Both the position numbers and the translations under genes were made by a program. The notes beneath the pieces were generated by a model. The model was not told where the DNA came from and made no database searches. It saw only the letters and a list, made by a program, of their open reading frames with translations. Shown here one piece after another: positions 2,457-4,076 of a stretch of 64,000 nt of DNA. The stretch spans positions 1 to 64,000 of the forward strand of contig NZ_JACHHX010000006.1 in the NCBI RefSeq assembly GCF_014202935.1, in the 5' to 3' direction. The stretch comes from Rehaibacterium terrae (GTDB lineage Bacteria; Pseudomonadota; Gammaproteobacteria; Xanthomonadales; Xanthomonadaceae). Within the stretch, counting starts at the first letter, position 1, and the number at the start of each line of letters is the position of its first letter.

Positions 2457-2717
<261 letters not shown>

Positions 2718-2816
2718 GTTTACCTCGTTGGATGCGCGACCTGCAGGAACGCCGCTACGCGGCGACGCACCGCCTGGCCCGCCGTTGATGGAAAAAATCG
2801 CTGGGTTAGCCGTGAA

Positions 2817-2846
2817 ATTGTAGCCCGGACAGGGTTTTGCGAACAA
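2817..2846 (-). promoter_or_regulatory. Putative sigma-70 promoter for rpsO
   Basis: Minus-strand TTGTTC (2841-2846), an 18-base spacer and TACAAT (2817-2822), about 100 bases upstream of the rpsO start. It lies between the hairpin element at 2852-3011 and rpsO. This gives rpsO-pnp a transcription start independent of the upstream operon, as in E. coli. Confidence 0.55.
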
Positions 2847-2851
2847 GGGCG

Positions 2852-3011
2852 CTAGCAGGCTGTTGGAAAACAGCCTGCCAGGCGAGCCAGGGATGGCTCG
2901 CAACGCAGATCGATCACTGCAAGTGGTTGATCTGTCGGGAGCGAGTCCGGACATGTGCCGGACTCGCGACTTGAAAAACGCACAGGACGTGCGTTTTCAA
3001 CAGGCTGCTAG
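2852..3011. repeat. MITE-like element of five hairpins with terminal inverted repeats, overlapping the truB stop
   Basis: The ends are near-perfect inverted repeats of about 20 bases: CTAGCAGGCTGTTGGAAAAC at the left and, read inward from the right, CTAGCAGCCTGTTGAAAAC. Between them are five consecutive stems: 2857-2864/2869-2876, 2882-2889/2894-2901, 2907-2917/2922-2932 (imperfect), 2941-2950/2958-2967 and 2975-2983/2989-2997. No coding capacity and no clear target duplication are seen. The right-hand CTAG supplies the TAG stop codon of truB. Mobility is inferred from the structure. Confidence 0.8.
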
Positions 3012-3949
3012 TCCGCCACGCCCGGCTTGGCGGCTTCGGCCGCCCAGCGGAACAGCCGCTGCGGGCGCAGGCAGCCGTCCAGGCCGATCTCGCCCAAGCC
3101 CAGCACACGGCCCGCCCGGCCGAACACGGCGACCGGGCCCGGCGTGGCGCCCTCGGCCAACCGCAGGGTCTGCCCCTGTCCCAGCCGACGCGCCTGTTCA
3201 GGTTCCAGATCGATCCGCCGCCAATCACCCAGCCCGGCTTCGACCGGCAACAGCAGCGCCTCCCGCCCGGCCTCGTCCAGTGCTTCCAGCCTGTCCAGCG
3301 TGGTCATGGCAGGTTGCCGGAACGGATCGACCCAGAGCCGGCGCAACTCGAGGATATGGGCGCCGCAGCCCAAGGCCTCGCCCAGGTCGCGCACCAGGCT
3401 GCGGATGTAAGTACCCGGGCCGCACTCCACCTCCAACCGCAACCGGTCACCGTCGCGACCGAGCAGTTCCAGGCGGAAGACCTCGACCTCGCGCTCGCCG
3501 ACCGTCACCTGCTCGCCGCGGCGGGCCTTGGCGTACAGCGGCTCGCCGCCCTGCTTGAGCGCCGAATAGACCGGCGGACGCTGGCGGATGCGGCCGCGCA
3601 GCCGTGTCAGTGCGTGCTCGATCGCGGCATCGTCGAACGCCGGTACCGGCCGCTCGCGCAGCACCTGGCCCTCGGCATCCTCGGTGTCGGTGGTGACACC
3701 CAGCCTGGCCACCGCCAGGTAGGCCTTGCGCGAGCCCAGCAGATGGCCGGCCAGCTTGGTGGCCTCGCCAAAACAGATCGGCAACAGGCCGGTGGCGAGC
3801 GGATCCAGGCTGCCGGTATGGCCGGCCTTGGCCGCACGCAGCAGGTGGCGCGCGCGCTGCAATGCCTGGTTCGAGCTGATGCCACGCGGCTTGTCGAGCA
3901 GCAGGATGCCGTCGAGGTCGCGGAAAACGGTGCGCTGGCGGTGGGTCAT
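3008..3949 (-). CDS. truB: tRNA pseudouridine(55) synthase
   Basis: Converts U55 to pseudouridine in the T-loop of tRNAs. The 313-residue protein has the motif [12 protein letters not shown] with the catalytic Asp near residue 49, an N-terminal [12 protein letters not shown] and a C-terminal PUA-like portion. The ATG at 3949 (MTHRQRTVF) is chosen because the longer reading frame upstream is only the REPIN at 3983-4046. No good Shine-Dalgarno is visible. The stop codon TAG lies inside the terminal CTAG of the hairpin element 2852-3011, so the last codons may have been altered by that insertion. It lies between rbfA and rpsO as in the E. coli operon. Confidence 0.95.
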
Positions 3950-3982
3950 TCGCAGGAGCGGATCGTGACTTCGGTCGATGCA

Positions 3983-4046
3983 TGGGAGCGGCCATGACCG
4001 CGACCGGAGTGCCATGCCGGGCTCATCGCGGCCATGCCCGCTCCCA
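3983..4046. repeat. REPIN (paired REP palindromes) between rbfA and truB
   Basis: Inverted arms of 21 bases at 3983-4003 and 4026-4046, matching at all but two positions. Each carries the GGGAGCGGSCATGNCCGC pattern typical of REP sequences in Pseudomonas and Xanthomonadales. It sits in the only sizeable gap between rbfA and truB. No transposase (RAYT) is present in the window. Confidence 0.8.
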
Positions 4047-4076
4047 CGCAACCCGTCCTGCGCTCACGCGACGGGA

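Follow-up and report, generated by a model that had tools for sequence, protein, structure and literature searches.

A mobile element between truB and rpsO of Rehaibacterium terrae, probably moved by IS5-family transposases and carrying candidate CsrA/RsmA-type hairpins

The 160-bp element lying between truB and rpsO in Rehaibacterium terrae, at positions 2852-3011 of the window (the whole 64,000-nucleotide stretch of DNA analysed), is probably best explained as a MITE moved by IS5-family transposases and carrying hairpins of the CsrA/RsmA type as its cargo. The two parts of this explanation differ in strength: mobilisation by an IS5-family transposase appears almost certain from the comparison of copies and insertion sequences, and the chances that the core acts as RNA through CsrA/RsmA look evenly balanced. 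MITEs are usually viewed as passive insertion-sequence leftovers; if the hairpins do bind CsrA, transposition would rewire or buffer a global post-transcriptional regulator, and each sense insertion behind a gene would supply its mRNA with a regulator-binding 3' region. In the literature searched for a link between MITEs and CsrA none was found; most subscription papers and ISfinder lay outside this search, and absence from print is not claimed. Just two papers contain both 'CsrA' and 'miniature inverted', PMC4383904 and PMC3446304; in the available part of the former they are unrelated topics.

The limits of the element are exact, CTAG tetramers at 2852-2855 and 3008-3011 flanking it, and most of the anatomy proposed in the initial annotation is borne out: the matched ends (CAGGCTGTTGGAAA and CAGCCTGTTGAAAA) agree at 12 of 14 positions; the five consecutive stems are found in the RNA fold of the + strand, at -91.3 kcal/mol (z -9.65, none of 200 shuffles being equally stable), and the reverse strand folds too (-81.3 kcal/mol, z -9.31); coding capacity is indeed lacking, with no transposase gene and with crossing open reading frames that come only from mechanical listing. 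The features of the element and of its surroundings are the following.

2852..2855, no strand: left copy of the target duplication, CTAG (YTAR type, 4 bp), the same type as in autonomous insertion sequences
2856..2871, + strand: left terminal inverted repeat CAGGCTGTTGGAAAAC, A-type, resembling the ends of the IS5-family element at L285:850-2145
2855..2878, + strand: hairpin 1, the terminal repeat folded onto its own complement (from the RNA fold)
2882..2901, + strand: hairpin 2, hexaloop A-G-G-G-A-T with a C-G closing pair, CANGGANG motif at 2888-2895 (from the fold, the alignment and the loop count)
2905..2935, + strand: hairpin 3; in other copies a GNRA-type loop (GCAA) is the commonest
2942..2966, + strand: hairpin 4, stem GTCCGGAC...GCCGGAC, with quite different stem letters in many distant members
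2971..3000, + strand: hairpin 5, loop CAGGACG (2983-2989), equal to a CsrB-type repeat, with A-tract and T-tract arms
2993..3007, - strand: right terminal inverted repeat; hairpin 5 overlaps it with its 3' arm
3008..3011, no strand: right copy of the target duplication, containing the truB stop TAG (3010-3008, minus strand)
3008..4051, - strand: truB, tRNA pseudouridine synthase, the gene that transcription passes ahead of the element (Pfam TruB_N)
2457..2720, - strand: rpsO, ribosomal protein S15, the gene that transcription reaches past the element (Pfam Ribosomal_S15)

An Rfam scan over the window element gave no family at threshold. Identity with a REP element was considered and rejected on account of the 160-bp length, the inverted ends and the YTAR duplication, REP elements being described, in the part of the source available, as palindromes of 20-40 bp (PMC3733652).

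The initial annotation had also taken the element for an insertion with terminal inverted repeats, a reading confirmed by dispersed copies, target duplications and insertion sequences sharing its ends; it is the comparison of these sequences that lays out the anatomy of mobility. Recurrence was checked by blastn both in the source genome (24 matches in 2.89 Mb, window copy included) and in relatives (matches in 9 of 40 genomes, source genome counted). With R1, a covariance model made from hairpins 2-5 of 27 copies, the source genome gives 41 matches at E 0.001. Of these, 26 exceed 40 bits, and several low-scoring matches are echoes, on the opposite strand, of copies already counted. The subfamilies follow a common plan with differing termini: A, to which the window copy belongs, is characterised by CAGGCTGTTGRAAAAC and B by GGAACCTCTGAACAAG, and further terminus types among the copies include GGCAACGCTGATCAAG and GAGAGGTTGTGA. 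In the relative G033, where alignment with the window copy defined the ends, the flanking tetramers are identical at 12 of 20 copies (TTAG 5, CTAG 4, and one each of CTAA, ATAG and CTGG). At 140 of 149 sites the terminal repeats match in at least 9 of 14 positions, the ends being the best-scoring choice; the flanking tetramers are identical at 51 of these 140 sites (shuffled mean 15.6, maximum 26), as located by an end-finder that rewarded matching tetramers.

Insertion sequences with related ends are found in several genomes. The multi-copy ones of G205, G341 and G025 have B-like ends and a YTAR-type duplication. In G033 the insertion sequence at L285:850-2145 is flanked left and right by CTAG, and its ends, CACGCTGTTGAGAAAG and CAGGTTGTTGAGAAGA, are A-type. 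Four intact transposases score over the NCBIfam NF033581 (IS5 family) cut-off, namely those of L285 (A-type) and of L281, L283 and L288 (B-like); an insertion sequence of G022 is assigned as B-like solely on the basis of its DNA ends and of Pfam PF01609. An intact A-type insertion sequence was looked for in the source genome and none was found; a relic is present there (L291), in which an A-type end is followed by a 119-aa IS5 fragment under the NF033581 cut-off. In the mechanism proposed, IS5-family DDE transposases would act in trans on the terminal inverted repeats, duplicating a YTAR target in the process; in the window this target would have been the CTAG containing the truB stop codon.

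Derivation of the core from a parent insertion sequence was considered and rejected, because the insertion sequences sharing the ends lack the core: in 30 transposase loci, R1 matches the core only beside IS copies. Such copies lie against or near element cores at L287:2476-2615, L297:812-911 and L285:719-851; in L287 and L285 the two meet at a YTAR site. The insertion sequence of L285 adjoins the core at the position expected of hairpin 1. Contact of the kind seen in L285 is a possible route by which the termini change.

The consequences of the insertion for truB are less drastic than was initially thought. The truB TAG does fall inside the right-hand CTAG of the element, as annotated, and on this ground the terminal CTAG had been read as the element's own contribution, making a new stop and resetting the end of the gene; this reading is highly improbable, because the CTAG is the duplicated target, the tail of TruB looks ordinary and the relative G012 holds an unoccupied YTAR stop at this site. 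Since a duplicated target is host sequence, the in-frame TAG already terminated truB there. The gene was detected in 30 of 30 genomes, and 22 of the 30 loci were examined, the 20 readable ones being those of the source genome and of 19 relatives, next to which the TruB C-terminus of the source looks ordinary; the truB-rpsO gap is 290 nt in the source, 90-292 nt in 17 relatives and over 900 nt in two. In G012 (L319) truB ends with the stop CTAA, after which comes CGCCTTGTCCGC...TACAAT with no insert, and the corresponding stretch of the source genome reads CTAG and then CGCCCTTGTTCGC...TACAAT. As this empty site matches the source flanks, the insertion preserved both the end of truB and the stretch before rpsO; the TTGTTC...TACAAT stretch upstream of rpsO is intact beside the element, and a promoter scan with the sigma-70 consensus over 2700-3100 gave no site before rpsO. 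The stop of a called flanking gene lies inside the tetramer at 30 of the 140 good-ended sites, and 49 of the 665 YTAR tetramers in those loci are such stops, the element sites included. Elsewhere in the source genome (L291:535-1821, G000:C11) a gene with a PF04452 RNA methyltransferase domain, read as rsmE, ends in the CTAG that opens the IS5 relic, the same stop-codon placement as at truB.

This closeness to stop codons is also a ground for seeing in the element a mobile terminator or mRNA 3'-end stabiliser, a role that the initial annotation had raised for the window copy and in which hairpin 5 would end transcripts both ways and the other hairpins would block nucleases. Hairpin 5 has the form A-tract/hairpin/T-tract, the T run lying inside its stem, and the elements lie a median of 14 nt past the upstream gene on the same strand (n=109), beside the 30 stops within tetramers just given. 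We consider this explanation somewhat unlikely: a scan of 2700-3100 gave no intrinsic terminator (a GC stem and then a T run), the position behind stops may stem from YTAR targeting alone, and the kept GGA loops are left unexplained.

It is the conservation of these loops, and of the stems that carry them, which suggests the preferred reading, that of a MITE with CsrA/RsmA-type hairpin cargo. The cargo would be the four-hairpin core (hairpins 2-5), which appears to be conserved as a folded single strand equal to the window + strand. Comparison of copies reveals covariation in the stems: in a MAFFT alignment of 27 copies, 91.7% of 1102 cells are paired in hairpins 2-5 and two-sided changes occur in 31 of 42 pairs; none of 500 shuffles is as high, and slid controls reach at most 42.3%. 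The loops were counted in 251 distinct copies, these being the rows above 40 bits of five model-made alignments once 15 duplicates, 3 cut rows and one opposite-strand echo (43.3 bits, in L168) had been dropped. The hairpin 2 loop holds GGA in 228 copies and the hairpin 5 loop in 231, against 3 copies each for the loops of hairpins 3 and 4 (in the 89 rows from distant genomes 80, 81, 3 and 3 for hairpins 2, 5, 3 and 4, respectively), the R1 training copies having borne GGA, so that the model favours copies with GGA; copies lacking it were found nevertheless. In the rows of a pattern scan, whose pattern fixed hairpins 2 and 4 and left hairpin 5 outside, hairpin 5 has GGA in 64 of 72. The usual loop of hairpin 2 is CANGGANG; that of hairpin 5 is mostly CAGGANG, with CANGGANG in several members outside the class. 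A GGA as such is not restricted to these two hairpins, since it is common at the margin of hairpin 4 as well, where its GG belongs to the stem (181 of 251 copies, 26 of 89 distant ones).

The letters of hairpin 4 are wholly different in many distant members, and its GGACATGYGCC loop region is replaced in many of them by AACCACGTT or AATCGCATT types (L264, L266, L407); these replacement loops without GGA are possibly a further conserved feature. Most of the distant members that were folded retain the five hairpins despite mostly different stem letters. The comparison further places the hairpin 2-5 core behind several kinds of terminal repeat, in many families and also outside the class; termini that vary between subfamilies while the inner hairpins persist point to a function in the cargo.

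The loop types of hairpins 2 and 5 match published CsrA/RsmA motifs, which include, in the accessible portion of the source, the CsrA SELEX consensus RUACARGGAUGU, the RsmE loop ANGGAN and the CsrB repeat CAGGA(U/A/C)G (PMC7652899). The element is therefore proposed, as a reading of its sequence, to be a mobile RNA module that would bind CsrA where it is transcribed: in transcribed copies hairpin 2 (ANGGAN loop) and hairpin 5 (AGGAN loop, closed by C-G) would most likely be the paired CsrA/RsmA-binding hairpins, and these putative sites would either titrate the protein or serve as its tether at the 3' region of whichever transcript bears the element. Transcription, binding of CsrA and an effect of this binding are what we infer. 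A CsrA was found in every one of the carrier genomes tested (23 of 23), a result that, being limited to carriers, is consistent with the proposal and discriminates little. Counting against it are the spacing of the two GGA loops (about 95 nt) and the stems of hairpin 2, which are long and often GC-rich, whereas most SELEX hairpins have no more than 4 contiguous pairs; the stems of the element are stable, and very stable stems are possibly disadvantageous for CsrA, according to the part of the source at hand (PMC7652899).

The strand on which the core is kept bears on whether it matters as RNA or as DNA. On the + strand G.U exceeds A.C by 46 to 23 in the MAFFT alignment (p 0.008, with cells that are not independent) and by 315 to 124 in the model-fitted alignments, where the excess is favoured by the model; the changes within three subfamilies go in the same direction and are smaller (36 to 22). 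Between tandem gene pairs, as defined by a home-made gene caller and after omission of weak matches, cut copies and copies noticed as listed twice, the element is sense in 42 and antisense in 23 cases among 149 listed sites, and sense in 21 and antisense in 10 among 71 distant sites (p 0.07); combined, the counts are 63 and 33 (p 0.003), for sites unscreened for orthologous insertions. The bias owes much to a single genus (G341 with G230), at 9 to 0, the other distant-site groups giving 12 to 10. The antisense tandem copies are the window copy and 32 others; since the window core is antisense to truB-rpsO, the window copy would be active only with transcription of the + strand. The wobble asymmetry and the 63 to 33 sense bias give the idea of CsrA binding modest support.

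The same data can be read at the level of DNA, the element being a MITE of the ordinary kind, mobilised by IS5, with core hairpins that are of importance solely as DNA (for example in transposition, via binding of a host factor or transposase or via hairpin extrusion) and with GGA loops that arise as a by-product of this need. No other part of the whole is as well supported as mobility, inverted repeats can covary via DNA repair without selection on RNA, and fresh G.U and A.C changes within the subfamilies differ only modestly; yet insertion sequences with the same ends do without the core, the constraint sits in the loops, and the + strand shows the G.U excess already described, all of which makes a purely DNA-level role, in our judgement, unlikely.

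As for known systems, the element resembles the Rfam sRNA family TD-2 (RF03162), a name that presumably refers to Treponema denticola: the TD-2 consensus has an AuGGAu hairpin loop, and in its last hairpin the arms are A/T-rich and the loop is GGAU; the correspondence of these loops with those of the element is our own reading. The TD-2 consensus differs from the element in having just three hairpins, the first of which falls, in the cmscan alignment, on hairpin 3 of the element and not on hairpin 2. In 61 genomes of the order, 8 of 8 TD-2 matches are copies of the element family, all below threshold; membership was rejected, the score being 25.6 bits on the window element and 43.1 on the best copy, versus a gathering score of 48.7. 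This sub-threshold likeness hints that the module may extend beyond the phylum; an Rfam scan of 15 distant loci gave no match to TD-2 or another family up to E 0.5, and on the element copies scanned no Rfam family reached threshold.

The QMITE1 and QMITE2 elements of Coxiella burnetii, as described in the part of the source available, are likewise short and non-coding, with inverted ends, direct repeats and many copies, and some QMITEs give rise to sRNAs (PMC5896051); CsrA was sought in the main text of that paper and is not mentioned there. Differently from QMITEs, the element has an IS5-type YTAR duplication, one core behind several termini and a phylum-wide spread. With the sRNAs CsrB, RsmY and RsmZ it shares GGA-loop hairpins, CAGGA(U/A/C)G and ANGGAN, as given in the accessible parts of two sources (PMC7652899, PMC4383904); unlike them it is dispersed and mobile, with two GGA loops. 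The TwoAYGGAY and Bacillaceae-1 RNAs, predicted to bind CsrA via two hairpins, are similar in this respect, but the portion of the source available does not describe them as mobile (PMC4333381); neither is among the Rfam scan matches on the element and its copies.

The distribution of the family is wide. The pattern scan of named genomes gave at least 114 stretches; 53 among the 80 matches listed bear Lysobacterales names (placement judged from names), the carriers including Thermomonas haemolytica, Arenimonas fontis, Rhodanobacter, Dyella and Lysobacter, and the remaining listed matches are MAGs labelled just Proteobacteria, Pseudomonadota or Gammaproteobacteria. Plasmid and phage records searched by blastn gave no match to the element. 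With R1, carriers are at least 28 of 274 genomes drawn across the class at E 0.001, at least 19 of which reach 1e-10, in 16 families, and at least 40 of 398 genomes drawn across the phylum at 1e-7; of these 40, 35 lie outside the class, among them 29 in a single family. These counts are lower bounds because few candidates were scored per genome. It is a tentative proposal, falling a little short of even chances, that transposable elements across the phylum carry as cargo a conserved two-site CsrA/RsmA module with changing IS5-type termini, and so would repeatedly seed genomes with sponges or tethers for a global regulator.

In G025 an array at L032:1361-2013 (G025:C1, near 3397634-3398278) consists of five units in tandem, which measure about 130 bp and all contain hairpins 2-5, and more runs of element units occur elsewhere in that genome; if the proposal is true, the tandem arrays would amount to transposon-derived sponges of the CsrB kind. 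At L016:758-1176 a B-type copy has a cspA thermoregulator (Rfam RF01766, 82.6 bits) close by.
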